Of a stretch of DNA of 64,000 nucleotides, positions 1,760 to 39,078 are shown in pieces. Under the pieces are notes generated by a model. It was not told the origin of the DNA. It worked only from the letters and a program-made list of their open reading frames with translations, and searched no databases. How positions within the stretch are numbered: position 1 is the stretch's first letter; each line of letters opens with the position of its first letter. A program made the position numbers and the translations under genes. The DNA lies in the NCBI GenBank assembly GCA_010093605.1, contig MU004184.1:701897-765896 (forward strand), given 5' to 3'. Origin of the DNA: Lophium mytilinum (lineage: Eukaryota > Ascomycota > Dothideomycetes > Mytilinidiales > Mytilinidiaceae).

Positions 1760-2500
1760 AGGTCAGTCAAAACACTCTCGATTACGCGCATTTCTCGCAG
1801 TTAGTGTTTGCAAGAGTTGCAGCCTCTCTACGAACTTTCCCCGTATTCCAAGTTGAAAGAAGCGAAGGAGGGGAGGCAGGGAGGGGAGGTCCGAACGCAA
1901 CGAATGTGAGCTAATTTGTGTTCTTTCCAATTACACGGAAATTTCTTGTGCTCAATATCTATACGATTTCCAAGCTTCGTACCAGTTTGCCGTGCAGTTA
2001 GGGCTAGTATGCTTGAGAAAGGGGGGAGAGGGGGAGGCTCCTAAAGGCAGTGCACGCGAGGGATTTTATTCTCCGGCTAATTACACGGAAATTTCCAGTG
2101 CTTAACATTTACGTATTTCACAGCTTATTCATAAGTTTGCCATGTATCCAGAGCTAATAGGACCGAAAAAGGGGGGAAAGAGGGAGGATTTCCGGAGTGG
2201 ATATATGTAGGCTAATCCATTCTCTTTCTAACCACGCGGCAATCGTTAGTGATTGATCTTTACAGTCTTTGCAATCTATCTACAGTTTTGTCGCGTATTC
2301 GAAGTTAGTCAGAGTGGGGAACGGGGGGGGGGATAGGGGAGATCGGCTAAGTATTAGGAGATGAGCATGTAGGTAAGCTGTTCGGAGGTCGAATGCGCGG
2401 CAATTGCTAAATCTACTTCTTGTGAGTGATATAGCCTTCCTGGGAACTTTGCCGCGTCTTTCGACAAGCGTTTAAGAGTCAGTAAATCACTGTTCAGCCA
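1760..2500. repeat. Satellite array B, four diverged units
   Basis: Four units start with a block like attacacggaaatttc at about 1931 and 2080, accacgcggcaatcg at about 2231, and atgcgcggcaattgc at about 2392. Each continues through a tttgccgtg/tttgccgcg block and then a purine-rich, G-run segment. The period is about 145-160 bp. The plan (anchor, AT-rich core, Gn run) matches the array to the left, so these are probably older copies of one family. No gene is seen. Confidence 0.7.
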
Positions 2501-2859
2501 GCTAGGGCGAAGGAATTCTCGTCTTTCAAATCGTGACTTAAAAAGCCTCTCTACGTGCGCACCTACATGGAAATTCCCTCCTACGTACTATATATTATAT
2601 CTGAATGCTTTGCGCGCTTGAATTGTATGCTGAAGTTTATTGCAGCACTAAAAGAGGTAATTTAGTCCCTATTATTTAATAAATATAGAACGTAGAAAAA
2701 GAACCTATATACTCTACTACGCTGTAAATACTCTTTATACTTTCTATTTTCCATCTATAAGCTTTGCCGTGTAATATATATGCTAAAAGTAATTGCAGGT
2801 CTAATAAAAAAGAGGTCGGGGGCTAAGAGAATTTCCGAGCTTAAGAGTACTAGAATGTA

Positions 2860-3770
2860 AGAGCTTACTGCGTGCGTAACAACGCGGTAATTGTTCCTTG
2901 GGTAGTTTATCTTCCTTCGGCGTCATTTGCGATCCAGAATGTGCCTGTAGAGGAAATAGGGACGAAGGAACCAGCTGGCTGGGACCGCGGGCCGACCCGC
3001 GGATATTCAAAGCCGGCAATTTAGCACCCAATCTACGCGACAATCGTTCTTTGAGCAATTTGCATCCTATTGGTAAAGTTTGGCATCTAGAAGATGCTTG
3101 TAGAGCAATTAACGGTGAAGCGATGACCGGATGGCCGGATGCGGTCGCTGTGCCTGATGAGGATATCGGAAACTGCCTTTTCATTACCAAAGCTACGCGG
3201 CAGCTGCCCTTCAAGTGGTTCCTCTTCGTACGATAAAATTGGCGCTTTTACTTTCGTACAGATGGAGGTTATAGGGTTAAAATGGCGAAGAAGTGTCCAG
3301 ACTTGAGAAGCGCGGGCTAGAATGGCGAGCAATCTACGTGCGCAGCCATACGTCAATGATTCTCTACGTGATTTTAAATCATTAGCTAGATTTTGGCACT
3401 TAGGGTCCTAATTGCGCACGTAGAACGAGTCCTCGGGGTAAGAAGTGGCTCCAGGAAGCGCGGACCGAAACCGTTGGCAATCTACGTGCGCTACAAGACG
3501 GCAATGATTCCTTACGTGCTTAGTTATCTCCACTGAGATTTTGGCACCTACAAACCCAGTAGCGCTCGTAAATAAGTCTTTAGGGCAAGGGGCTGCTCTA
3601 CCTAAAGAGCGCAGACTAAGCCCGCTCGCACTTCACATGCGCTACAACGCGGCAATGATTCTTCATATGCTTCGTAACCTCTGGCTGGTTTTTGGCACCT
3701 GGAGTCCTCGGAGCGCACGTAGAGTGAGGCTCAGTATAGAGGGCTCCTGAATCTGAGGAGCACGAGGCAT
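2860..3770. repeat. Satellite array C, diverged units with gcgcacgtag and cggcaatgatt blocks
   Basis: Blocks such as acgcggcaatgattc, tttggcacct and gcgcacgtaga recur about every 130-150 bp (for example around 3340-3430, 3480-3570 and 3640-3725; weaker copies around 2880-3110). The anchor gcgcacgta is shared with array A, so A, B and C look like one family at different ages. The open frames here are shadows of the repeats: they lack ATG starts with a good context and have no domain character. The stretch 2500-2860 is AT-rich and looks like eroded units. Confidence 0.65.
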
Positions 3771-5446
3771 AACTGCTCGTAATGTCACTTTGAAGGCTAC
3801 CCCTCGGCTCAAAGTTTTAAAACCTGATCATGAAATCTAACGTGTTTCTCATTTGTGCTCAGCTACCTCCGACACCATGAGTGACAATTAACCTCGTGTA
3901 ACAGAAGAACCTTGGATGTTGAAGTCAGTGTTGATATGGGCAGCGCTGTTTGCGCCTTCGGTAAATGCCCGCTCCTATACACCACAAAGTAAAAGGCAAA
4001 GTGAGTACGCTTCCGGCTATAAATCCGCTTAACCAGACATGCCAGACGAATTTCCAGATGCAATGTTGGGGGAAAGGAGAAGGGAGGTGAGCGGGGGAAA
4101 GAGACACAATCGTTGACAACACTGAGATTTAGCCTTGCTCTGTCTATTGTTAGAGTGCGTTAAATGGAAAGTGAGGAGAAGCGTACCCAGTTGTGAATCT
4201 ACCAACATGTCTCCATAAGCTCCGCATCTCCAAAGAGGTTCCACTTTGCCTGCTGAAGCCTGGTCTGTATGAAGTGTTTCAAGAGGTCCAGGGGTATTCT
4301 CGTATGCTTGCGAGTGATCAAATGCGATGAGGTGGTAAGTGAAAGTTAAATGTGAGCATTGGCGTTGTTTGGGGTATATACTATATTTAATTTTGTCAGC
4401 CTCTATCACAGCAGTGCAGATGGGTCCTGTCCTCATCCGCTGCACCAATTAAAGCATTGGTAGCATTGTCCTCTATCCCGGGCGCAGTGCAGGTGGGTCC
4501 TGTCCTCACCCGCTGCAATAAGAACCCAAAAGCCACTATCTACCCACGAAAGTCCTCTGCTCAGGCAGCGAGGCGGTCCGGGCTCTAGAGGTGATGTTAC
4601 CCGTGTTCGATTCCTACTAGCTTCGCTATTTCTTTTTGCTTTTTTTTGCGTTTCGATACTCTCGGGTCCGTCATTCACTACGCACCGTACGTACACTTTA
4701 CTTTTGCCTTCATGTAGGGCAACCTACATGAAGGGCGAGGTGTTTGTGATACGCCTTGTAGTCTATGTACCATGAGTAGAGGACGTTGCTACGGTAGGTG
4801 AATGAAGATCAGGCACACATGACCAGGCTCACGAGCACCTTCTCAAATGAAGATACATACTGCTACTATCGTTTGAACCATCTTGAAGTTCAAGAAAACC
4901 CAATAAAACGATGCTTTCTACGTCTTTCAGGGATAATTGCGAGTGAACTTGGTGTAGAGCGGCGAAATGACCGTGATCCTCAATGGGAATGGGGGCGACT
5001 GGCGCGCAGGGGAAAGGCCTAAGATATGTCCCCTCCAATAGAGTGCTGAAATCACCGGCTCCAGATGGCGTTCTTGTTTCAAGGCATAAAATCTTAATGT
5101 TGGAGATATAAGGTAGTTTCTACCGTCACTGATTCAACATAGGCTGAAGAACTCGACTGACGAATCTACCTATCGCCAGGCTGCAAGCCCGACTCTACAC
5201 ATAAGAGTCTATGTTCCTTGCAAGATTGGCATGCCTTGGAAATACAGGGGGTTGAGGAGTGAAATGGGATAGAATACACACAGGGATGATCGAAGGGGAT
5301 GCGATACAGGTAAGATGACTGGCCATAAACATCCCGTACTGAGCATAACAAGACAACCAGGCACCAGTTACACATCAGACTCTCTCGTCCCAGGGCCTTC
5401 TGCCACCCTTTGTACCTCGACATCATCCCCCATGCCAGCCCCAAAA
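3771..5446. other. Intergenic stretch without a recognisable gene
   Basis: No open frame here has convincing coding character, splice structure or a known domain. It contains a short direct duplication (listed separately) and a segment around 4590-4650 with a GTTCGATTCC motif followed by T-runs. That motif resembles a tRNA B box, but the flanking bases do not pair into a T stem, so no tRNA is called. Confidence 0.6.
4411..4517 (+). repeat. Direct duplication of a 34-base segment, 73 bases apart
   Basis: The segments 4411-4444 and 4484-4517 match except for two transitions. Both are preceded by cctctatc and a short variable stretch. The spacing is 73 bases. The origin is unknown. Confidence 0.8.
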
Positions 5447-6567
5447 TCACGAAAGCCATCCAACCTGCGGCGTCATCGCTCCACCATCCGTCGCGGGATC
5501 TGGCTTTCCGAACAAGTTCCACTCCGCCTGCTGAGCTAGCGTCTTCCCGTAAAGGAACTGCATGAAGTCCCATGCGAAACATCCGTTGACTGTCTGTGCA
5601 GACATACTGTCGATGACATCCTGGTAGCACATCAACTGATCTGCTACGGAACACGCGAGCTGGAACACGCAATCTTTGGGCGGAGAGGGTCCGCACTCGT
5701 ACCCGGCGTTGATCACGCTGACGAACCCTTCGACTCCGTAGAGCTTCTTGAGAGACCGAGCCTCGAGCCGTCGCACGACCTTCTGTTGAATATTGGCCAT
5801 TTCGAACAATGAGGCTACACCCTAAATCAAGCAGTATAATGCCAAGGTTGCATTTTCTTCGTTTCCCGTCGTGTAGTCTGTCGGCACTTAGCGGTCCCGT
5901 GAGCGATCCCGTGGGTACGCAAAGTATCGAGCTAGCGCGCAGTCTGGTATAAGGAAGCCGGTGGCCATGAATTCAAACACTCTGTCGAACGCAATCGGCA
6001 AGTCGATCTTGGAATCTGAGCTTACGGTCATGACTGGGACGCTGTTGCGTATTTCTCGAGTCTGTGGGAACGCTGGTCAATATACGGTCTCAATTCTAGA
6101 TCGACAGGGAAGGTGTAGACCTACTATGTGTTCGTGGGTCTTTTTGGACTTCTATAGGATGTTAGCGATACTCGGAGAGGGCCTTTGTGCTCTGTGGTGG
6201 ACCTACTCCGAAGGTTTCTAGCTCTCGCTAGATGACGGGCGATTGTAGTCGTACGTCGAACTTGTCGAGACACCAGTGATACTGACCGTAGACAACCATG
6301 AGGGTATGGATATCGCCTTTCAACAGCTTCAAGCCAGCAGTCCTAGCATTTGTTAGCCGTTACGTGCCATGACTCGAGTACTTGTATGCTCATCGCTTAC
6401 TCTGTAGGCCGCCATGCATCTGCAACGCCCGGCGGCAGCTTGCCTAAGTGCCACGGGCCAAAGTCGAAGTGGGAGTCTGCGACCCGATCCATTAACTGCC
6501 GGTACGCTGGCAGCTTGATGCCCGAGTTGGACGCGTTGCCCGTATCGTGAATGTCGTTCACCTCCAT
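5447..6567 (-). CDS. Multi-exon protein of unknown function (tentative model)
   Basis: Not recognised. Phase-consistent exons can be read on the minus strand: 6401-6567, 6255-6342, 6125-6151, 6026-6061 and 5447-5821, giving about 230 residues. The first intron (GTAAGC, GGCTAACA branch, GCTAG acceptor) is convincing, and the last exon has good coding character with Cys-rich text (CGPSPPKDC). The two tiny middle exons and the long fourth intron (5822-6025) are doubtful. An alternative reads on from exon 6026-6061 into an in-frame extension starting VSSDSKIDLP. The N-terminal part contains HDTGNASNSG and FDFGPWHLGKLPPG. No signal peptide or membrane segment is visible in this model. An overlapping frame at 5166-5696 has a hydrophobic stretch and could be an alternative 3' end. 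It sits between the satellite and the polysaccharide cluster, with no visible link to either. Confidence 0.42.
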
Positions 6568-7608
6568 GGCAGGCAGAGGGAGAGGGGATAGACTCAGTCA
6601 GCAGTGTGAGTCGATTTTGGATGGAGGTGGATGTTTTGGCCTCGGGCCTCAAGGTCGAAGAAATTGACGCGATTGCCAAGCAACGGAGTTTTGATAGTGA
6701 AAAGAGAGTTGGTTTCGCGCCAACACCGAATCACACCTGCACTCATTACACCACTGTTTGGAGGCCGTCGACACGTTCTCACGCACTCTAGACTCAATGC
6801 GATCTACCGGCCAAATTGAACCGCGGTGATACTGGATGGAAATCCCTTACCCCTGAATGATACGAGGATGCGCTATTCCATGTATCAGAAGACCCAGTAG
6901 AGTGGCTGGATGGGATAGCGGGGGATGAGAGTGAGCTTCGACTTGTCAAAAGAAGTCGCAGGCGGCCACATATACCGCTGTGAAATGGGATGCTCGAATT
7001 TGGTAGAGTGGACGAGGCGAGATATGAGGTTGAAAATGGAGTGACATTGGGGGAGGTGTGATATGCAGAGTCCGGATTCCTTGAGGCTTCAGATCAGGAC
7101 AGCGATACTAACGTATTGCAATCAAGATAATCGAGCCCCCTTGGCCATACCGTTTGAGAAGTGATGTGGATGTGCATTCTTGAGGCTTCAAATCGCACTA
7201 TGGACCTGACGTTATATGAAAGACACGAGAGTCCACTAGGAAGGCACAAAACGAATCAGAAATCAAAAACACGAAGCTTGATTTAAAGGGCTACAACATT
7301 TTTGTATGCACTGGTTCTACACAAAAGTCTATATACGGTATTGCAATGCAAGAGGTGGATGTGACGCCAGAGGATACGTTCAACAACAAACTAACAACAC
7401 CCAGTATTACCGTCGCCAAACGCCGCGCCAACGCACGTGGAGCGAGACCACTATACACAGAAGTCCGCTATGATTATGGCTAGACTTAAAGAAAAGAAAA
7501 GAATGAGGGAAGCGTGGCTCCTACAGAATACCATAATTATCAGTGACGCCTCATTACGGCACGGCTCCATCCACCGAGGAGCTTGTCGTGCCGTCGATTT
7601 TCAGCCGC
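6568..7608. other. Intergenic, no gene seen
   Basis: This is the region between the unknown gene and the stop codon of the GH16/acyltransferase fusion. Short open frames lack ATG starts or coding character. It presumably holds the 3' UTR of the fusion gene. Confidence 0.55.
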
Positions 7609-10600
7609 TCACAGCGAAAACCGGCTTGTCGTCGCCTTCTCGTCGCTCTTATATTCGCTGTTGTAAATGCTGCTGCTTCCACTCTGCGGGCCGCTCTCTG
7701 GGCCGCTCCATTCCACGCTCTTGCCCTCTTCGATCATGTCCGCACTCTCCCGCTTCGATAGTAGGTCGTCTGGGAAGGGAAACAAGGTCCGCCGTCTAGG
7801 CGGGTTCTTCTCACTAGCACTCAACCACACCTGCTGCGTGATGTCTTTGCCCAACGCCTCGATGATTGGAGTGACAATTGGAAGGGAAAGGAAAAGAACC
7901 GCATAGCTGGAGATGCCAACGATGGCGACATTGATGCCATAATTGAAGCCACGCGATGCGAGCAAAACCATGAGCCAAGAGCCCCAGCTCCAAAAGACGA
8001 GACCGTGGAGAAGGTAGATGGTGAAGATGTGAGGGAAGACGAGAAGGAAGGCCTTTCGGCTCAACAGCCACTGCACTGCTGGGGATATCTCCACAATAGC
8101 CTGCATACCAACTGCGAATAGCAGACCGTTGAGACGAGGCACGTAGTAAGCTGGGTATCCCGCGTTGTCAGTGCGCGCGAGGGGCTCGCCCGAGGGCACA
8201 TCGGGGTGGATGTTGTTTTCATAGGTGGCGAAGTTGAAGTCGGTCCAGTTGGGAATTACGTTTGAGGAGAATCCCAAAGCGACGGACGTCCAACATAGAA
8301 GAAGAAGCGGGTAGTAAGCATAAGCGCGGGAGTAGAGCCACGGGCGCCACTTGTAGGTGACGTCGAGATCGGCGAGCATGAGACCAAGCCATAGGTAGCT
8401 GCCCCATGATTGCGCATACCAGTGATTTACGACAACAAAGGCATAGTAGCAGAAGCGCTTCCAGGCGGTCTTCATCTCGTATACGACGACAACGCCGAGG
8501 AGGACGAGCCAGGATCCTTGAAGCTGCACTGCGATCGTCCAAAGAACGCCCGTGCAGTAGTTGAATGTGATTTGAGGAACAGCATTCGGGATGAGATAGA
8601 TAAGCTCGAGGACCTCGCTGATGTAGTGGCCAAACGTAGGAAAACGTGCCACGTATGGCCAGGTGGACCAAGAGATAGATGGCGTGTACTCAAGGAATTT
8701 GGTTGCGCCACAATCGATGACGAAGTACTCGAAGAGCACGACCGTTGACACGGGTATCATGAGACGCGGAGTTCGTCGTACAGCATTCTGAGCAATGTCT
8801 TTCAAGTTTCCACTCTTGAGGTACTTGGCGACCAAGAAACGAGTTGAGGTTGTGAAGAACACACCAAGCCACATCTGGTTGAGGATGAAAGGAGAAACAA
8901 TTTTCTGGGCCCAGTACTCGCTCTTGTGATGGAGCGGAGCGCCTGGAATGACAATGGCAGGAACATAGGAGAGACCAAAATGCATGACCGTGACCAGTAT
9001 CGCACAGATAGCGACGAGGCCGGCGAGATAATCAATGCGCTGTCTGGGAGGATGGACAGTCATACGCGGTGCTGGCAGAGCAGATTCAGTCACAGTCGAC
9101 ATAGGAATCTTGCCCTCGGCACGATCTGCTGCCGATTCGTGGACTTCCAAGGTCTTTTCCGATACCATCCCGGGCGACTTTTGGTATTCCGCAATTCGGT
9201 TTTGATGAGAGTCTGGAAGTGGGATATGTTCCCTGGTAGTGTTGAAATGGCTGGAAGAAGCGGAGTATGGCGTCGTCGCCCTCGGGGTTGTTGCTCGACT
9301 ATCCCATTTCACAGAGGCTGTTTGCGATGACTGTCCGCCGTACATGGACGAGGCGCTGTATATCGAGGGTTGGCGACTTGGACCAATCTGCTCAATTGCC
9401 ATATCGTCTTCCTCTCGTTTAACACCGAAGTCGAAGCTGGACTTCTGGGCTGGAGTCGTACCGCCAGATGCCAAGGTGTCGTTCGAGCTAGCCACTTCGG
9501 GTACGGCCGGTTCCGCTGACGGTTGGCCATGACCGTGACTAGCTGAGGCCAACTCCTTTCGCCAAGGTGCGCGGCGCAGGAAGGCGTGCAGGAGCAAAAG
9601 AGATGAGAATGCAATGCAGATGACCGATATCCATAGTGCGGGCATCCTTCTGATGCTTTTGTGGCTAGCTTGCTCCCATTTCTTGGTCGCAGCTTCATCG
9701 TGCGGCGTGGACCCACGAATGGTGATATCATCCATGGAGCAAGCGTCTGTGAGGGGACAGCGAGAAACGAATTCGGTGTGCTGTTCCACGCTCATGGTCG
9801 AAGAGTTGAAGAACATGCGCACCCATGCCACACTGGCTACAGATTCCCTTTTGGGAGGTCCTTCCATGGAATATTTGTTGCCAGTCGACCAATGCTTCAG
9901 ATAGAACGGAGCTGGAACAGAGGGCATGCCCTTGTTGTCTTTGTGCAAGACAGTCCTGGTGCAGTTGCCCCCAATGTAGAAATTGATGTACTCCTTCGTC
10001 CAGTCGATGCGGTATTCGGTGTAGTCCCAAGCATCAACGCTTCCGTTAGTGGCGGAGTTGGCCAACGTGGTGTAGTTGTGGTTCGCAGACGCATTGTGGC
10101 TCAGATCGGTGTAGTTCATCCCCAAGTTTCGAGTAGGGAATTCCCCGCTGACGAAGGTGCCAATCCAGGCTTCGTTGGCTGCGTCCGTATTCATGACGCT
10201 TAATTCGGTGGATTCGGTGTCGTTGTACTGAAGCATCATGGACATGGCGCTGCCGCCGATTCTCTGTGGTGGCGATTTGATCAGGGAGCGGAAAGAGCCA
10301 TACTGAATGTCCTTTCGAACAGTGTGCATCCCGCTGCCCACAACAAGGTGGACATCAGATGACGGTTGGAGGTGGAAGTCCAGAGAGCCCTTTTCATTCA
10401 ATTGAAGGTTTTTCGGGTCCGCACCCTGGCGGTAGATGGCATTCCAGTCTTTCTCGTAGTTGTTTGAGTATGACTCCTCTTGGAAGTCGGGTAGTGGCAG
10501 ACCGCTGGTCTCGTTGAAGTAGACAATGATGGAATCCGTAAATAGCTCCTTCGTGGAGGCATCGTAATACCCGCAGGAACAGTTGTTGCCGTTGCCGCCA

Positions 10601-10680
10601 GTGACATCTGCTCGTACCGACGCAAAGGAAAGCAACGCCAGAGAGACAAAGGAAACGAAGGGAGTTGATCGGGGAACCAT
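7609..10680 (-). CDS. GH16-like domain fused to a membrane acyltransferase-3 domain
   Basis: Single-exon protein of 1023 residues, ATG at 10680. Residues 1-24 are a signal peptide (LALLSFASVRA). About 32-315 form a Cys- and N-glycosylation-site-rich concanavalin-like/GH16-like domain, with WDYTEYRIDWTKEYINFYI typical of the fold. One membrane span follows at about 347-367, then a Ser/Thr/Pro-rich linker to about 540. A multi-pass acyltransferase-3-like domain (RIDYLAGL at about 548, His in VTVMHFGL at about 567) runs to about 950, and the tail is charged. The position where GH16 enzymes have ExDxxE reads TELSVM (about 158-163), so classical hydrolysis is doubtful and binding is likelier. The C-terminal domain is related to the protein at 15491. 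It is divergent to the GT2 synthase. Inferred role: O-acylation of a surface polysaccharide at an endomembrane or the plasma membrane, with the lumenal domain holding the chain. Acyl donor and acceptor are unknown. Confidence 0.85.
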   Translation of the reverse strand: MVPRSTPFVSFVSLALLSFASVRADVTGGNGNNCSCGYYDASTKELFTDSIIVYFNETSGLPLPDFQEESYSNNYEKDWNAIYRQGADPKNLQLNEKGSLDFHLQPSSDVHLVVGSGMHTVRKDIQYGSFRSLIKSPPQRIGGSAMSMMLQYNDTESTELSVMNTDAANEAWIGTFVSGEFPTRNLGMNYTDLSHNASANHNYTTLANSATNGSVDAWDYTEYRIDWTKEYINFYIGGNCTRTVLHKDNKGMPSVPAPFYLKHWSTGNKYSMEGPPKRESVASVAWVRMFFNSSTMSVEQHTEFVSRCPLTDACSMDDITIRGSTPHDEAATKKWEQASHKSIRRMPALWISVICIAFSSLLLLHAFLRRAPWRKELASASHGHGQPSAEPAVPEVASSNDTLASGGTTPAQKSSFDFGVKREEDDMAIEQIGPSRQPSIYSASSMYGGQSSQTASVKWDSRATTPRATTPYSASSSHFNTTREHIPLPDSHQNRIAEYQKSPGMVSEKTLEVHESAADRAEGKIPMSTVTESALPAPRMTVHPPRQRIDYLAGLVAICAILVTVMHFGLSYVPAIVIPGAPLHHKSEYWAQKIVSPFILNQMWLGVFFTTSTRFLVAKYLKSGNLKDIAQNAVRRTPRLMIPVSTVVLFEYFVIDCGATKFLEYTPSISWSTWPYVARFPTFGHYISEVLELIYLIPNAVPQITFNYCTGVLWTIAVQLQGSWLVLLGVVVVYEMKTAWKRFCYYAFVVVNHWYAQSWGSYLWLGLMLADLDVTYKWRPWLYSRAYAYYPLLLLCWTSVALGFSSNVIPNWTDFNFATYENNIHPDVPSGEPLARTDNAGYPAYYVPRLNGLLFAVGMQAIVEISPAVQWLLSRKAFLLVFPHIFTIYLLHGLVFWSWGSWLMVLLASRGFNYGINVAIVGISSYAVLFLSLPIVTPIIEALGKDITQQVWLSASEKNPPRRRTLFPFPDDLLSKRESADMIEEGKSVEWSGPESGPQSGSSSIYNSEYKSDEKATTSRFSL

Positions 10681-12321
10681 GGTGCCAAAAGAGTGTGGAC
10701 AGGGAGTCGCTGGAGGTGGGTAGAGGTGCTGTCAGAGTGCCTCCCACGGTATGCTGTTCCGGGCCCGGGGTGCTTTTGCATGCGTGAACGGCTATGAACG
10801 AGCACGTTGGCAGACGTCAAAGGCTGAAATGCTCGGGGCTGAAATGCTCCTGGGCAACGGCTGGAGGCGCAAACCGGAGATTCAACGATGGCCGATCCAC
10901 ATGAGGACAGCACGCTTCCGGACTTTGGGAGGAGCCGAGCAGTGAGAGGAGAGAGCAAAAAAAGGCCCGCACATAAAGCTCAAACGGGACGGTTGATAGG
11001 AAGAAAGGCGGTGATTCAGGTGATGCCTGCAACTTCAGAAGAGACTTCTGCGAGACGGCCCAATTGCACCACAGAAGCAGCGTTCCGCCAACAGCATGTA
11101 CAAGTACCGTCTTGCTGCGTCGTCTCCCTTGCTGGCTTGAATGCATGCACCGGAGAGCACACAAGCTTGGCTGGCCGAATTGGGCGCCGCCTGGGATCCC
11201 CCCTGAGCACGGGCGGCGGGCATTTCATGGCTGGCAAGCGGAAACATGACGGTGGAGACAGAGTGGAGAGGATGCAGAGACGGGTTGGGAGAGGCGCAGA
11301 GACAGCGCAGAGACAGGCACGGATCGGCGTGGTGGTGAGCCAGGGGAGCTTCGGCGTGGTGAGGCGTGAGAGGTGTGGTTGGAGTGCTCCCTGGGCGTGG
11401 GAGATGCCCTGGCGCACATCCCGTTCCTAGCGCCAGGAATTCCTCGCCAAGGCTTCGCTGCATGCTCTCTGCTGCTCTAGGGATAGTGAGGCGTATAGTG
11501 ATGCACAGTGCCGCCGGGCGAGCCATGCGTTGGGGGAAACTAACCACGTTGCCCCGACTCAACACCATCTGCAACAGCAAACCGTACCACGCAACACCAC
11601 AGGCCCCCGCATCCGTCCCCCCCGATGCGGCTGCCCAGGCCTGCTGCCACACCCTGCCACACCCTTCGGCCGGTCTTCGATATCTTAGCACCACCGAAAA
11701 GCATGCTCCCCCGGCACCGTGACGCATCGTCGTCGCTGTCGTCGTCGTCGTCGCGTTCGACCCATGCCGCAATGCAGAGTCTTTCTAGCAGGTAACTACC
11801 GGCGATGCATCCGCACGCCATGACAGGATTAGATCGACAGCGATTGCGCTCCAGCTTCACCCAGCATCCACCCAGGGCGGCATGCGTCCCCCCGGGTGCC
11901 CCTAACCGTCTACGTCAGGTACTCAGCGGCTGATGAGGTACACGGAAATTCGTCGTCGGAAGCGCTGATAGCAGCTGCTGCAGCGCTGATCCTCTGCAGC
12001 ATGCCCACCCTTGTCTTATTGTTTTATTTCTCAACACTATCAAAAGTCACCTTTCGCACCGATTCGTCCTTCTCTTTCTCGTTATCGTCCGTCTTTACAC
12101 CACCCTGTCACTCGTTTTTGTTCATTTTTGGGTTGGTGATAGAGTGCTGTTCGGTCCTTGACATACCACTACACATGCCGACTCTACTACTATAATATCC
12201 ACTTTTCAGTTGCTTCGTCCTTCTAGGGTACCACCGGCCATCATTCTTTCTGGCCAGCCCATTCCATCGTTTATACTTGGTTTCAACCTTGACACTCTCG
12301 CTGAGCAGTTCCACGGTCAAC
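10681..12321. promoter_or_regulatory. 1.6-kb shared upstream region of the fusion gene and the GT2 gene
   Basis: The two start codons face away from each other across 1641 bases, long for this compact genome. The last 300 bases before the GT2 gene are pyrimidine-rich (about 12000-12120), as is common in filamentous fungal promoters. A gtc/gtcgtc microsatellite lies at about 11729-11757. The open frames on both strands here change frame often and show no domain, so they are treated as shadows. A joint promoter and long 5' leaders are inferred. Confidence 0.55.
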
Positions 12322-13912
12322 ATGTCGGAACCGAAAGATTTCACGGTCATCGAAATTGCCGAAGATCCTTTTTACTCTCCCCAAGATGCTGCTGCTGAGG
12401 CTCCATCGACGAAACCAAAGTCGTTTGCCTCCAGTGACACGGTTGAGCGTATCTCCGCATTTATTTCAGATTGGACCCCTTTCTGCCTCGTTGCTTCGTA
12501 TTATGTCTTCTCAACATGCCTCTACATGTACTGCAGCGACGGCCTCATCGCCATTTTCTGGTTCATCTATATGTGTACCAACTTCTACATTGCTGGCGCC
12601 ACCGTTCTCGAGGCGTTCATGAGCATCACACCTTGCCGGGAAGCTAGGAAAATCGTCACCCAAGCAGAGCAGAAGGCATGGAACTTTCCTACGCCAGACA
12701 GCGAGCTCCTAGTCCTCGATCTACTCATTGTTGCCTATCTTCCCAATGAGAAGGACATCATCATGGATCGAGCACTCTACGCTTTGCAACAAATCGACTA
12801 CCCGCGGGACAAGATTCGAATCAACATTCTTTACAACACCCCGAAACCCATGGAGGCATTGGAGACCCAGTTAAACGACCTCACTCACCGCTTTCCGCAT
12901 GCCAGGGTCATCAAAGTCCCGGGCTCTACCTCGAAGGCGGACAACCTCAACTACTTCCTCACGCTCAACACTGGGTCTGACCTCATTGCGATCTACGACT
13001 GTGACCACTACCCGCATCCCAACGGCCCACGCTGGGCTGTTGAGCGCTTTATGGCCGACGAGGAAATCGATATTGTGCAAGGTCGATGCGTTGTCTTCAA
13101 TGCAGCCGAGACGTACTTGACGAGCATGATTGCCGTTGAGTTTGACAAAATTTACGCTGTATCGCATCCAGGCCGTGCGACCATGTGGGGCTTCGGGTTG
13201 TTCTGTGGCTCCAACGGTTATTGGCGAACTTCCCTCCTCCGCGACCTCAAGATGGACGGCGATATGCTGACTGAGGATATTGACTCGGCGCTGCGGGCAT
13301 TCTCTAGGGGCGCAAAGACGGTACACGACCTCAACGTTACTTCATACGAACTCGCACCCACCACGTTCCCGGCATTCTGGAAGCAACGGCTTCGATGGGC
13401 TCAGGGTTGGGCGCAAGCGAGTATGAAGCATGTGAAGATGGTGTACAACAAACCCCAGGATCAGATCCACGCGAAGGACAGTCGCACGTTTGTGGCACGA
13501 TTTGGGATCTTCTCATTGCTTCTCATCCGAGAGGCGAGCTACTATCTGGTCACTCAGTACACGTGCCTTGTCCTCAGTTTCCTCATCGTCAAGTTCCCGC
13601 GGACTGGCGGCGAGCTCTTCAAACTAGTCTACTTCCAATACCCAATTTCGCAGTGGCTCTTCATTATCAGGTTCGTACTACAGCTTCCCCGCTCGCAGAG
13701 CTTATGACTAACGAAAGTGCAGTATTGTATGCCTTGTCGCGACGCTGTGGATCACCAACCAGGTGAAGTCGGAGTTTGTGACGAGGAAAATGATTATCTC
13801 GTTTTCTGCAATGTACCCTGCCTATCTGATCCTTTCGGCGACGATTGGCCTGTACGGGCATGCAAGGCAGATTGTCAGGTATAGCTCATGGAACCCTACT
13901 GCGCGGACGTAA
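12322..13912 (+). CDS. Processive family-2 glycosyltransferase (GT2/Cps1 type)
   Basis: Exons 12322-13670 and 13723-13912 give 512 residues. The 52-base intron has the branch GACTAAC. ATG 12322 (caacATG, MSEPKDF) is chosen because the open frame upstream begins only with a non-ATG codon. Two membrane spans precede the catalytic domain (LVASYYVFSTCLYMY and on). The GT2-A signatures are complete: DLLIVAYLPNE, DCD in IYDCDHYP, LTEDIDSA, and QRLRW. Further C-terminal spans end in WNPTART. The nearest named relatives are fungal GT2 proteins such as Zymoseptoria ZtGT2, needed for hyphal growth on solid surfaces, and Neurospora/Cryptococcus Cps1. Their exact product is unsettled and hyaluronan-like polymers have been proposed. 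It should make and extrude a beta-linked polysaccharide at the plasma membrane. Flanking acyltransferase-like genes suggest the product is acylated. Confidence 0.9.
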
Positions 13913-15490
13913 GAGCCCTTGCTCTGACGGCTGCTGTGTCGTCACGTTGTCACAGCGAGCGGGTTCGGCAAGGCTCCTTGCATTGGAAGAAGCTTATCGT
14001 CTTCCTTGACATTTTCCGGCGGTTTCCCGGTACCATGCGACGCAGCAGAGGTGCCGACGGGTCTAGGCAACGAAGGGTTATTCTTGGGTCGGGCGTTTTC
14101 TGCGGGCATGAACTGCACATGGAGCTGCGTGCAGCAGCGCACATTCCTGTCAGGGCTAGAGCAGTCTCATTCTGCACCTATATGTACATACATAATAATT
14201 AATTCGACTGCGACTGGTTTCCTACAACAATATGCTGTGCCCCTGGCCTGACTCGCGATATTCTCGTCTGGTTAATCGGCCAGTGACGTCTCCGCTGCAG
14301 CTTTTCGCTTTCGCTCTCATGCTTCCGACTGTGCCACTGTGAAGCATCCAGCATGCATGCCAGCATCCAGAACCCGAGCGTCCGCGATGCAGGCAGCCGA
14401 CACTTCCCGAGTCTTTGCCTCTAACCTTCATCATTGTGCACAATCGCAGTGGCGACTGCATAAGTGGCTGCCTATTTTTGAAGGCGCATAATGTACCAGG
14501 TGTGAGCAAGCCTTCCCTGAGATGTCGCTATACAGCTTCGCCGGAAGTTCCCAGTCTTGGCCCTCCCCCTGCCACACAGATCGGCAGCGCCAGAGAGACA
14601 TCAATCTGATACCCCCATTCCAATCTTCCTCATAAGGCGACGGCCGCCCACGCAGCTACGCGATTAGGATGCATGCCGCTAGTCAACGGCGATCGCAGTC
14701 GACTCCGGCGACGCGCGGACCGTTTTGCAATATCCACTACGGCCATCTCGACTGCGAGTGGAGCTGCCGCGGCTGAGAATTGGCTTTATTGTCTTGGACC
14801 CACCTCCCGACGCAGAGATGCCAGGAACATAGTTTGTAGATGCACAGTCGCTGCGATAAGGTGTGCTGATCGCGATGCCACCCTGGCAAGTCTGCCGCAT
14901 TAATGAGGATTGCTAGTGGCGGTCGGCTTCGCACGGGACTGGCTGCTCAAGGCGCCCAACGCACGGCTGTGGCTGTTCCCGCGCGCCGGTGTCGCTTGGT
15001 TTGGTGGGCAGATCGACAGGGACCGATGTGCTGCACGGCTTCGGTTGGTAGCAAGCCCAGCACGCCACCATGAGCCCTCACCGACGACAGGCGCACTGAC
15101 ACCCGGGACACCCATCCCATCTTCGCACCCCTCCCCCTCAGCCCTCCGCGACACGCCCCGAAGTGGAGGCACAGCGCGCACCCGTCCACGGTACACCTGT
15201 GTCACCACGCGCCCCCGAGCCGCGCAATAGGAGCGGCGTCAGAGAACGCAGGCGGCCTGTCGATCTCGGCTCCTCTCCATCCATGGCTCCATCACGTCCG
15301 TCGTCGCCGGCGACCCGTCCGCCGACCCTCGACCATCAAAAGAGCAGTGCATGGGGTGCTGCAAGGGGCAACAACGCTGGCCTCTGAGTGATGCGTCCGT
15401 TCCGCAGTCTCCTTCTTCATCATCATCATTTCTGTAAATAAAGATATTGGCAGCGAGCATTTGCAGCGTACCTAAGAGCAGGCCGTCAAC
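13913..15490. other. Long spacer between GT2 and the second acyltransferase-like gene
   Basis: About 1.6 kb with no convincing gene on either strand. Open frames at 14.9-15.4 kb are GC-rich shadows without domains. It presumably holds the GT2 3' UTR and the promoter of the gene at 15491. Confidence 0.55.
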
Positions 15491-16859
15491 ATGGGCTTTG
15501 AATTCCCCCCCGCCCTAGTGCCAGCACCGCGCCCTCACGTCTTCCGTGAGCAGGACTATCTTATTGGCGTGCGCGGTTTCCTCGTTGTTCAGTCATTCCT
15601 TTGGGTGTTTCTCACGACTTTCGTTCCCGCCACTGTTGCAAACGCCGCCAATTCAGACGGCCCTCTCTACCAGACCATCATCCGCAAGACCTTTTCTGTG
15701 CTGTTCTGGAACGATGCTCTCATCTACTCCGCCTTTATCTTCCTGTCCGCCCGAACAGTGTGTCTGCCTTTCCTCAAGGACACCTCCCGCCAAACCATCG
15801 CGAGCTCCATCTTCCGCCGCGGCTTGCGCATGTGGTTTCCCACCGCCGTCGCCTTCGCCATCGCAACCCTCATCTTCTCGCAGTCAGGGGTCGCCTACAT
15901 GGACGACTTCAAGACGCGCACCGGCAATGTCTCCATTGCAACTCCTCGTCAGATTCCCAGCTTTCTCAACTGGTTCAACTCCATGTTCGAGGTCTTCTGG
16001 GTGACCAAAAACACCAATCTGCAAGCTGCCAACACGGCCTTCCCCTCGCAGACCCTGTGGATGATCACCACCATCTACGAGCAGAGCTTCACCATCTACA
16101 TGACCATGGTCACCATCCCCTACACGCGTCGTTCGTGGCGTGTCAAGGCATTCGCCGCATTCATCATCACCGCCTGGTGGGTCCAGTCGTGGGCCTGGTA
16201 CAGCATCGCCGGCCTCCTTATGGCTGACGCGGTTGTCAACATGTCTTTCCGGGAGAAGGCCCGTCGCGGCATCAAGGTGACGCGTTCCTTCACCTTCCCA
16301 ACGTGGCCAATTTATGGCTTCCTCATCCTTGCGGGGTACGTCATGGAGTATCTATGGGTCGCATGGCGGCCGGACCTGCGAAGTGCCGAGCTCAAGGGCC
16401 ATACCGGTCTGTACAATGCCGGATCATTGAATGCCGGCTTCGATGTCAACGGTCCCCAAGCACGTGACGACAACTTCTTGATCATCATCGGCTTCTTCTT
16501 GTGTGTCGAGCATTTCGAGATCTTGCAGCGAATATTCAGAACGTCGGTGTTCCAGTACTTGGGCAAGAGGTCATTCAGTAAGCTCGCCCCCTTTCTCTAC
16601 ACGTCGGCATCTTTGCTTTAGACTCTCTAACACACCACCAGGCTTCTTCCTAATACAAAGCATCATAATCTACACCGCAGGCATCAAGCTCTTCGCCGAG
16701 ATGCATTTCGCCCATAACATAGCCTTTGCTGTCTCGACATTCCTTTGTCTAGTCGTATGTGTCCCGCTCGTCGCACTGACCACAGAGGTATTCTATCGTC
16801 TCGTGGACTATCCGTCGACCGTGTTGGCGCATTTGGTGTTTGATTGGATCCGCACATAA
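15491..16859 (+). CDS. Acyltransferase-3-like multi-pass membrane protein
   Basis: Exons 15491-16577 and 16642-16859 give 434 residues. The junction restores KRSFS-FFLIQS in phase. About ten hydrophobic spans are visible, and there is no signal peptide or extra domain. It is a relative of the C-terminal half of the protein at 7609-10680: DYLIGVRGFLVVQSFL aligns with DYLAGLVAICAILVTV, FRRGLRMWFPT with VRRTPRLMIPV, and WWVQSWAWYSIAGLLMADA with HWYAQSWGSYLWLGLMLAD. At the first-span position where the fused protein has His, this one has Val (FLWVFLTTFVP). That His is the usual proton acceptor in acyltransferase-3 enzymes, so this copy may be inactive in transfer, use another residue, or act as a partner subunit. 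It lies in the same orientation as GT2 and downstream of it, so a role in the same polysaccharide pathway is inferred. Confidence 0.82.
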
Positions 16860-37151: not shown

Positions 37152-39078
37152 TGTTTCGAGGAGGCGGAAGAGCAGAGTCGGCTAAGAAGGGCGGTTGGTG
37201 ATGTGGTAGTGGCAGAGTTGACCTGCTGTCGCGATCTAAGCTCAACCCAGGAATCGGGTGTGTGAATAAGTAGGCTCTTATTCTCGATGGCGAAGGTTTT
37301 TATCCATGCGGTACCTTGGCAATGAAAGTGAGACGGCGAAGATGGGTTTCAAGCACAGCGCCACAACTTCTGTTGAATGCATGCTGTAGCGTCTTCACTC
37401 AAATATGTACATAGGGCGACCGTGTTTACTACGGGCATCAATTACTGTAGGTAATCTCATAATCCAACACCTTCTCTCAAACTCATATCTCGAGAAATAA
37501 TGGTGGGAAGCCTCCTTCATGGAGAGCATCCATAATGACCAAGGGAAATATTCCGTGGTAATAACCTAGAGAGGCATCTATATCGCATGTTGATGAACGG
37601 AAAGGACTACATATTATATTACAACGTGAGATGCTAGGTAAATATGGCGGGTAAGAGAAGCGTTCGGTATTGATAATGACTGAGAACCTGTAGTAACAGC
37701 TAATATCTTATGGTGTTGGCTAGTATCTTATATCGCAATAGCGGTACCCTACGGCGAAAGCTAAGTGCATCTAGGATGTGTATCTAGGAATGCATTAAAG
37801 CTAACATACAGAAACGAAGTCAAGTTTAATACCATTATTGCTTGCTGTGGTAATTGTTATAATCCACCACGCCAACATAGTCAGGTTCAGGACTTGATTT
37901 GCGGGACCCGACCCAGAGCCATGTAAACGTAGCCAGAGCTAATTTACTTAAGGCTCAAGCTTGTCTCTCTGCTTAGGTATCACAAGCTAGGAGAGTTTTA
38001 TGTGCCCCTACAGGGCCTCTGACACGCTGATGAATTTCCTGCGGAAGATACTCACCGTGGAGCGCTCTGCTGTGTAGCAGATCGACCACCTCTCCGTACC
38101 CACAGTATGACCGCAGACAACCCTCCAGGTAACGATGCAGGCAACATCATGACTCAAGAATCTCACCTTCTGCCTAAACCTACTCTCACCCCTGAGCTGT
38201 TGCCTAACCTTTTCTCAGCTATAAGACCACACATTTCCCTCGCCCAAATCTGTTCATCAGCTCTCTTTGCCATTATGGCTTAGATCAAGTGTAGTATCTG
38301 TTCTTGCTCAGTCTAACCGCTGAGGAAAGCGGTGCCACGGCCCGCTTACCTACGTTTAGGTTTTATCTTTGGAACCCTCTGCACCAGCCTTCAAGCAACT
38401 TGCTGTGCGAAGGCTGGGGCAACTGTGTCGCTGGTATTTGCACTGCCTCCGGCTGACGCGAAAGCTTTTTTCATTGAGTTCCTGTCTTCATGGCGGGTCT
38501 TGAAGAAGAACTGAGATGGAGAGAGGGGAGGACGAAGTTGAAGCCGCACGGACGCTAGAGTTGAGACTAATTGCTAGGATCTTTCAGGGGACTTGTCATC
38601 CTCACTCTCAAACCCTCCAGTACCTCTATAGCTCCTGCACTATTGCTGCACGATGCCATCTGTATATACGAATACTTGAACGGAATGATACTTCGGTGCA
38701 TATGGATTTTGGACTCACGAAGGCTCCGGCACGCGTCATTATTTCAGGACACCAAGTATCAATCTCTAGAGAAGCTTGACAGCATCTCCGGGATCGGATA
38801 TTAATACACGGTTCCAGTTTGTCCAAGAAGTAGCTGCCGTTAGCGCAGACTCGAGCCGATCTGGCGGGGCATGTTGTGCGGGGGTTGGAGGACCTGAAGC
38901 GTGGAAATGAATATCCGCTGCGGAGCCCAACACCCACTTTACCTCCAGCTGGCGCCAGCTTCTAGAGCTTCCATTCGGATGAGCACATGAACAATTCTAG
39001 ATCCCAGTACAAAATGAAGGGTCCGCCGCGTAAGAAGCAGCTCTCACGCGCAGAACATCCCCCGCGATTGCTCTCATC
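37152..39078. other. 1.9-kb stretch without a supported gene
   Basis: 37.4-38.0 kb is AT-rich. Open frames at 38332-38514 and 38516-38937 lack good starts, splice partners or domains. Nothing points to a transposon with clear ends. It presumably holds the promoters of the BTB gene and the reductase at 39079. Confidence 0.6.

Follow-up and report, generated by a model that had tools for sequence, protein, structure and literature searches.

Organization of the locus

The stretch of Lophium mytilinum DNA analysed here (64,000 nucleotides, positions 701,897 to 765,896 of the forward strand of contig MU004184.1, assembly GCA_010093605.1; hereafter the window) belongs to an assembly of 43.2 Mb and contains three genes, modelled from the sequence, that span window positions 7609-16859 exactly. 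These encode a membrane-bound glycosyltransferase of family 2 (GT2) and two membrane proteins resembling the acyltransferase-3 (AT3) family, here called AT3-A and AT3-B. GT2 and AT3-B lie in tandem with a gap of 1.58 kb, and AT3-A is divergent to GT2; the arrangement given in a preliminary description of this DNA, with the synthase gene between two AT3-like genes, is fully borne out by our gene models. AT3-A is a composite protein which, from the NH2-terminus to the COOH-terminus, comprises a putative signal peptide, a GH16-like domain, one transmembrane (TM) segment, a linker and a multi-pass AT3-like domain. The features are as follows.

10680-7609, minus strand: AT3-A gene, single exon, 1023 amino acids; TM segment near residues 346-366 (from hydropathy), followed by a Ser/Thr-rich linker of about 170 residues (24% Ser/Thr)
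9859-10365, minus strand: GH16-like domain of AT3-A, the stretch matching PF00722 (residues 106-274)
10198-10212, minus strand: lost GH16 catalytic motif of AT3-A, S157-T-E-L-S161 (from alignment)
7891-9021, minus strand: AT3-like multi-pass domain of AT3-A, residues 554-930 (from family match and alignments)
10681-12321, no strand: intergenic region between the divergent AT3-A and GT2 genes, 1.64 kb, possibly a shared promoter judging from gene orientation alone
12322-13912, plus strand: GT2 gene, cellulose-synthase-like and processive, exons 12322-13670 and 13723-13912, 512 amino acids
13671-13722, plus strand: GT2 intron, 52 nt, GT-AG
15491-16859, plus strand: AT3-B gene, encoding a stand-alone AT3-like membrane protein, exons 15491-16577 and 16642-16859, 434 amino acids
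16578-16641, plus strand: AT3-B intron, 64 nt, GT-AG
15572-15607, plus strand: AT3-B motif in the first TM helix (TM1), with Arg28 kept and Val39 in place of the His of R-X10-H (from alignments)
16656-16658, plus strand: AT3-B position in TM9, with Gln368 in place of His (from alignments)

The synthase and its relatives

The GT2 protein carries the residues of a processive enzyme, with DCD at 226-228, TED at 317-319 and QRLRW at 355-359, and it scores above the Pfam cut-off for both PF13632 (9e-21) and PF13641 (1.3e-14), which upholds its earlier description as a processive GT2; D133 we take, by analogy with BcsA, to be the first Asp of the processive set. Its closest named relative in the PDB is BcsA (5.6e-12), and with exon 1 as query the NCBIfam CelA family is matched at 1.2e-25, at 89.7 bits and thus far under the equivalog cut-off of 699. 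In a BLAST comparison that took in eight GT2 proteins, the highest score was that of a gene on C5 of this genome (78.6 bits), followed by E. coli BcsA (64.7) and PgaC (56.2), while the C2 and C1 GT2s and OpgH all remained below 22 bits. Judging from these matches and from the DxD, TED and QxxRW set that it has in common with BcsA and the Tft1/CelA type, the window GT2 is best grouped with the cellulose-synthase-like enzymes, at an identity of only 22-25% to BcsA and to the C5 gene. BcsA is more closely related to the C5 gene (124 bits), and we therefore dropped the possibility that the window GT2 is a mixed-linkage glucan synthase of the Tft1/CelA kind, Tft1 itself being outside the comparison. 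Scans of viral contigs returned no confirmed relatives of GT2, AT3-A or AT3-B, and scans of bacterial and archaeal genome contigs returned none of GT2 or of the AT3-A/AT3-B alignment.

The preliminary description had classed this enzyme with ZtGT2 and Cps1; if it were ZtGT2/Cps1, the product of the locus would be an acylated polymer of the cell surface on which the growth of hyphae over solid surfaces depends. Like Cps1, ZtGT2, MoGT2 and FvCpsA, the window GT2 is a fungal membrane protein of GT2 fold, with about 500 residues (N. crassa CPS-1 is reported to have 510; PMC6796803) and with DxD and QxxRW motifs. The distance from the first Asp of DxD to the Gln of QxxRW, however, is 129 residues, as opposed to 145 in MoGT2 (D156, Q301; PMC6731526) and 140 in FvCpsA (D161, Q301; PMC8539240), a published range of 140-145 that comes from two proteins only, themselves five residues apart. 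The window gene has a single intron; the MoGT2 gene has three, and at least two are reported for ZtGT2 (PMC5653360).

Cps1 identity was judged indirectly, through a second candidate in the same genome. This candidate, on C12 (C12:1620500-1630400, 3993-5096 onward), has a spacing of 142 and the highest PF13641 score in the genome, 123.8 bits, with the window GT2 second at 57.7 among the five matches listed. A genome search with its core exon, cut off at E 1 and with one candidate scored, finds no match besides itself. When the eight proteins were compared by BLAST, no alignment joined it to the window GT2 up to E 10, and one direct comparison of the two reached 16 bits (E 2.0), which is no significant similarity. 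The read-through COOH-terminal tail of the C12 gene also holds a Trp (TTWGTR), which may or may not correspond to the conserved W motif described in the tail of BcCps1 (PMC9500679). According to the same Botrytis study, Cps1 was present in 39 of the 39 Leotiomyceta analysed and Cps2 was absent from 14 of the 39 (PMC9500679), so that a single Cps1 copy per genome is plausible if this genome belongs to Leotiomyceta. Overall, sequence points to the C12 gene as this genome's probable orthologue of Cps1/ZtGT2; the window GT2 is probably a different enzyme, and a locus devoted to a ZtGT2/Cps1 polymer appears very unlikely to us. The connection with surface growth depended on that identification and is not supported either. 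No BLAST relatives of AT3-A or AT3-B were found at E 0.01 near the C12 gene (9.9 kb, C12:1620500-1630400, open reading frames of at least 50 residues). Two other GT2 genes, on C2 and C8, were considered as Cps1 and rejected as another GT2 type on inspection by eye; in the C2 protein the GT2 part follows a DUF7928 domain.

The GH16-like domain of AT3-A

The GH16-like domain is real as a family member, with a PF00722 match of 1.3e-7 and 31.7 bits against a cut-off of 22, and the genome scan finds it too. Its reading as an enzyme, in contrast, is weakened: the catalytic ExDx(x)E is replaced by S157-T-E-L-S161, which places a Ser at both catalytic Glu positions, and neither ExDxE nor ExDxxE occurs anywhere in residues 22-341 of AT3-A. 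Because both catalytic Glu residues are replaced, the domain more likely binds glycan as a lectin than cleaves it as a hydrolase. The only other match to this part of AT3-A in the genome scan at E <= 0.001 is a GH16 gene on C18 (8e-18, 26% identity over 216 columns with its exons joined), in which the motif is intact (EIDME). The motif is likewise intact in all seven of the other GH16 genes that were read, namely the C18 gene, four further genes that were aligned and two read as frames; an eighth, at C11:651498-652066, stands outside the seven, and the genome count of GH16 genes is a lower bound. The C18 gene (C18:1457500-1467400, 4000-5153) also shares an NH2-terminal CxCGY with AT3-A and ends in a hydrophobic segment.

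Foldseek with a predicted model of the domain placed the plant EG16 glucanase first (E 5.7e-4), and all five of the 806 matches with E <= 0.001 were VvEG16, with query TM-scores of only 0.18-0.31 among the 50 matches listed, which is weak support; unrelated lectin folds are also among the matches. Searched by sequence against the PDB, the GH16 region alone matched Crf1 weakly (E 0.0033), and the stronger result came from a profile that contained intact GH16 proteins. Nine N-glycosylation sequons lie between residues 22 and 341, as opposed to three elsewhere in the protein (400, 480 and 811), a distribution that fits a lumenal location for the domain.

Two homologous proteins with incomplete active sites

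AT3-A and AT3-B align over 432 columns with 21% identity and 59.7 bits. In 500 shuffles that preserved hydropathy, 343 gave any match at all, the best scored 26.6 bits and none reached the real score, so the homology of the two proteins is beyond chance as judged by their sequences. AT3-B is, in fact, the only other AT3-type match of AT3-A in a scan of its own genome at E <= 0.001 (E 5e-9), a scan that scored first-look candidates only (four of four). Both proteins are clearly multi-pass: at a hydropathy threshold of 1.5, roughly six or seven segments are evident in either AT3 domain and likewise in the control OpgC, and the ten TM helices of the superfamily fold are not apparent from these segments. 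AT3-B had no sequence match in the PDB at E up to 10, and no NCBIfam family was found for AT3-A or for exon 1 of AT3-B.

Essential residues of AT3 proteins are reported to be R-X10-H and RxxR (PMC9833829); the R14A and H25A variants of OafA had activity near zero (PMC7448272), the TM1 Arg is described as essential in OafB, OacB and HGSNAT as well (PMC12423673), and a His in TM9 is described as well (PMC2824669). We read these positions by eye in six comparators, the C1, C11, C14 and C18 genes of this genome together with OpgC and WecH, and found R-X10-H and the TM9 His kept in all six. One of the genes of this kind, OpgC-like and located at C1:1501000-1510900 (about 4471-5559), has one in-frame TGA within the match, which reflects either an intron or a broken gene.

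In the two proteins of the locus, on the contrary, complete R-X10-H is found in neither, and each retains one half. Val556 replaces the Arg in AT3-A, where His567 (TM1) and His892 (TM9) are kept; R28 is kept in AT3-B, where V39 replaces the His and Q368 replaces the TM9 His. The multiple alignment places the AT3-B Arg three columns off the others and the pairwise alignment pairs V39 with H567; TM1 of AT3-B has no His in any register, the His residues of this protein being at 16, 304, 341, 384, 387 and 426. Both keep the RxxR where TM3 reaches the cytosol (R636-T-P-R639 in AT3-A, R110-G-L-R113 in AT3-B). As for the residues of the wider transmembrane acyltransferase (TmAT) superfamily, also read by eye, AT3-A keeps the TM2 Phe (F608), the Gly of GLMLAD and Y889 and has T613 in place of the TM2 Gly, and AT3-B keeps F82 and the TMH6 Gly and has A87 for the TM2 Gly and F365 for the TMH9 Tyr, a position where the C1 comparator also has Phe.

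The claim that the locus holds two acyltransferases is weakened by these readings, since both conserved histidines are missing from AT3-B, which is probably either degenerate or a partner protein; AT3-A, with its TM1 and TM9 His, could still be active. It may be argued that neither protein is a transferase; both would then be degenerate and serve GT2 as receptors, scaffolds or partners in export, and the dead GH16 domain would capture the chain as it emerges. Such an explanation would account for an R-X10-H that is incomplete in both, for the loss of the TM9 His in AT3-B and of the TM2 Gly in both, all in a setting where every comparator keeps R-X10-H and the TM9 His, and for the vanished GH16 active site; we nonetheless regard it as rather unlikely, given that AT3-A retains the TM1 and TM9 His, the RxxR of TM3 and the Phe of TM2. 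Moreover, GWT1 is reported to be an active TmAT enzyme despite departing from DxxR and having no counterpart of the catalytic His of HGSNAT (PMC12423673), so motif loss is no proof of inactivity. Alternatively, the two halves could form a single active site split over two proteins, with AT3-B contributing the Arg that binds acyl-CoA, AT3-A the His, and the dead GH16 domain selecting the GT2 polymer, an arrangement that we consider highly improbable.

Genomic neighbourhood

Of the 38 main open reading frames in the window, including the trio, a Pfam scan covered 20 outside the trio and left out 15. Nearby families are a diacylglycerol acyltransferase, Stk19 and an isocitrate/isopropylmalate-type dehydrogenase; GH47, a P450, a GDSL lipase, transporters and a WD40 protein lie further off in the window, eight of the 20 frames have no family, and no further polysaccharide synthase was found among the 20.

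These recognisable flanking genes are ordinary, the intergenic gaps within the trio are about 1.6 kb, and only one genome was compared; the neighbourhood could therefore be accidental, with GT2 and two anciently duplicated AT3-like genes serving unrelated pathways, for example the acylation of lipids or secondary metabolites. No promoter word of 12 bases was found in common, while shared words of 11 bases numbered two against one in a control stretch, and those of 10 bases 12 against five. On the other hand, one of six AT3-like loci lies within 5 kb of this GT2, for which a rough, after-the-fact estimate gives a chance of about 0.0014 under random placement, and the GH16-like domain ties AT3-A independently to polysaccharide. 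We consider an accidental grouping unlikely.

Elsewhere in the genome, the only GH12 match is found some 2 kb ahead of the C5 GT2 gene (C5:467500-477400, 1778-2584 and 4526-5521). The C5 GT2 is BcsA-like, with a CelA score of 115 bits; it has an endoglucanase gene of its own nearby and is a candidate for the fungal synthase of a cellulose-like or mixed-linkage glucan. For A. nidulans celA, the portion of the published account available to us names a DUF3431 gene as neighbour and no GH12 (PMC5519750). A GH16 gene with intact motif and the DUF7928-plus-GT2 gene form a divergent pair about 2.5 kb apart (C2:2350500-2360400, 2345-3557 and 6111-9391). These two instances lend weak support to a tendency, in this genome, for synthases to be paired with proteins that recognise glucan; no neighbour of beta-glucanase type was seen for the GT2 genes at C8, C1 (3181 kb) and C12, among four, two and three scanned open reading frames, respectively.

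The window also contains a U2 spliceosomal RNA gene (38257-38468, plus strand, 88.2 bits) and minisatellite arrays (6-1539, units of 146-159 bases).

A possible route for making and decorating a glycan

The preliminary description had proposed a module for the synthesis, export and acylation of a cell-surface glycan. Synthesis and decoration of a glycan are a reasonable reading of this set of genes, because a membrane synthase adjoins two proteins of the AT3 superfamily and a domain of GH16 fold; the acylation step is one that we infer. We tentatively prefer, among the explanations considered, that the three genes form one small locus acting in a shared pathway, with GT2 as the synthase, AT3-A as the acylating protein and AT3-B as its partner. 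GT2 would polymerise a nucleotide sugar, probably into a beta-linked chain of glucan type, and extrude it across the membrane; on the outer or lumenal side, AT3-A would grip the chain with the GH16-like domain, which is catalytically dead, while its multi-pass domain would transfer acyl groups from cytosolic acyl-CoA to the chain. AT3-B would be a partner or regulator, as a subunit, an acyl-CoA-binding protein or a scaffold, with no independent transferase role.

The best reading we can offer by analogy is that the locus resembles opgC-opgGH of E. coli in its logic and that the polymer is beta-glucan-like. There, the AT3-type OpgC is divergent beside the membrane glucan synthase OpgH, a GT2 enzyme, and the periplasmic glucan-biosynthesis protein OpgG. 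OpgC is described as an AT3-type succinyltransferase (PMC2824669). The E. coli system differs in being prokaryotic and in having a stand-alone OpgC with R-X10-H intact, whereas a domain of glucan-binding type is fused to an AT3 protein here, and OpgH shows no BLAST relationship to the window GT2 (20.8 bits, E 1.1). With the AT3-SGNH proteins OafA, OafB and OatA, AT3-A shares the combination of AT3 and an extracytoplasmic domain, with an additional TM helix as the connection (PMC9833829). In those proteins, however, the added domain is a COOH-terminal SGNH, rather than an NH2-terminal dead GH16-like domain, and AT3-A lacks the Arg of R-X10-H. Transfer by AT3-SGNH proteins is reported to require the fused domain, and the range of acceptors seems to be narrowed by sequence nearby (PMC9558356). 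Cas1p/CASD1 (PF07779) also belongs to the transmembrane acyltransferase superfamily and has an NH2-terminal globular domain (PMC2824669), but represents a different family, of which this genome has its own single match at C14:143236-144714.

Several of our findings weigh against the proposed route, in addition to the promoter comparison and the single genome mentioned above. We are aware of no fungal GT2 of this type whose polymer is O-acylated. Even AT3-A may be inactive, since the TM1 Arg that it has lost is essential in OafA, OafB, OacB and HGSNAT. The family calls of the two proteins are weaker than the preliminary description implied, even though their homology, multi-pass character and position all stand: PF01757 scores are 14.4 bits for AT3-A (E 0.02) and 30.8 bits for AT3-B (E 2e-7), both under the cut-off of 31, and a PF01757 scan of the genome (seven candidates scored) gave matches on C1, C11, C14 and C18 only, with the contig of the locus unlisted. 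Direct BLAST also joins both proteins, more weakly than to each other, to ordinary AT3 genes of the genome; the next-best match among the sequences compared, a C14 gene, reaches 37.4 bits with AT3-A and 38.1 with AT3-B, and in an eight-sequence tree, which carries a long-branch warning, a clade of AT3-A and AT3-B is not resolved. AlphaFold2 models from shallow alignments are of low confidence both for the AT3 domain of AT3-A (pLDDT 43.9, pTM 0.30) and for its GH16-like domain (pLDDT 43.3). Finally, sequons 400 and 480 fall within the presumed cytosolic linker, where they may be unused.

Implications

The gene observation made in the preliminary description is confirmed, while neither the Cps1 link nor the two active acyltransferases stand as given. 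What remains, as far as sequence can tell, is an unusual locus that appears to combine a cellulose-synthase-like GT2, a fusion of a pseudo-GH16 with an AT3-like protein, and a degenerate AT3 partner. We recognised no paper on such a locus in the open-licence literature, judged partly from titles and the beginnings of abstracts, and the individual genes may well be already annotated in fungal databases. The phenotypes of GT2 mutants in Zymoseptoria, Fusarium and Magnaporthe should not be transferred to this locus. Several fungal GT2 synthases have no proven product; one review names seven plausible genes in N. crassa and, in the portion available to us, settles the product of none (PMC6796803). 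In such a context, a pseudo-GH16 domain carried by an AT3-like neighbour offers a hint as to what the synthase makes, which could be a chain that fits a GH16 cleft and is possibly acyl-modified.

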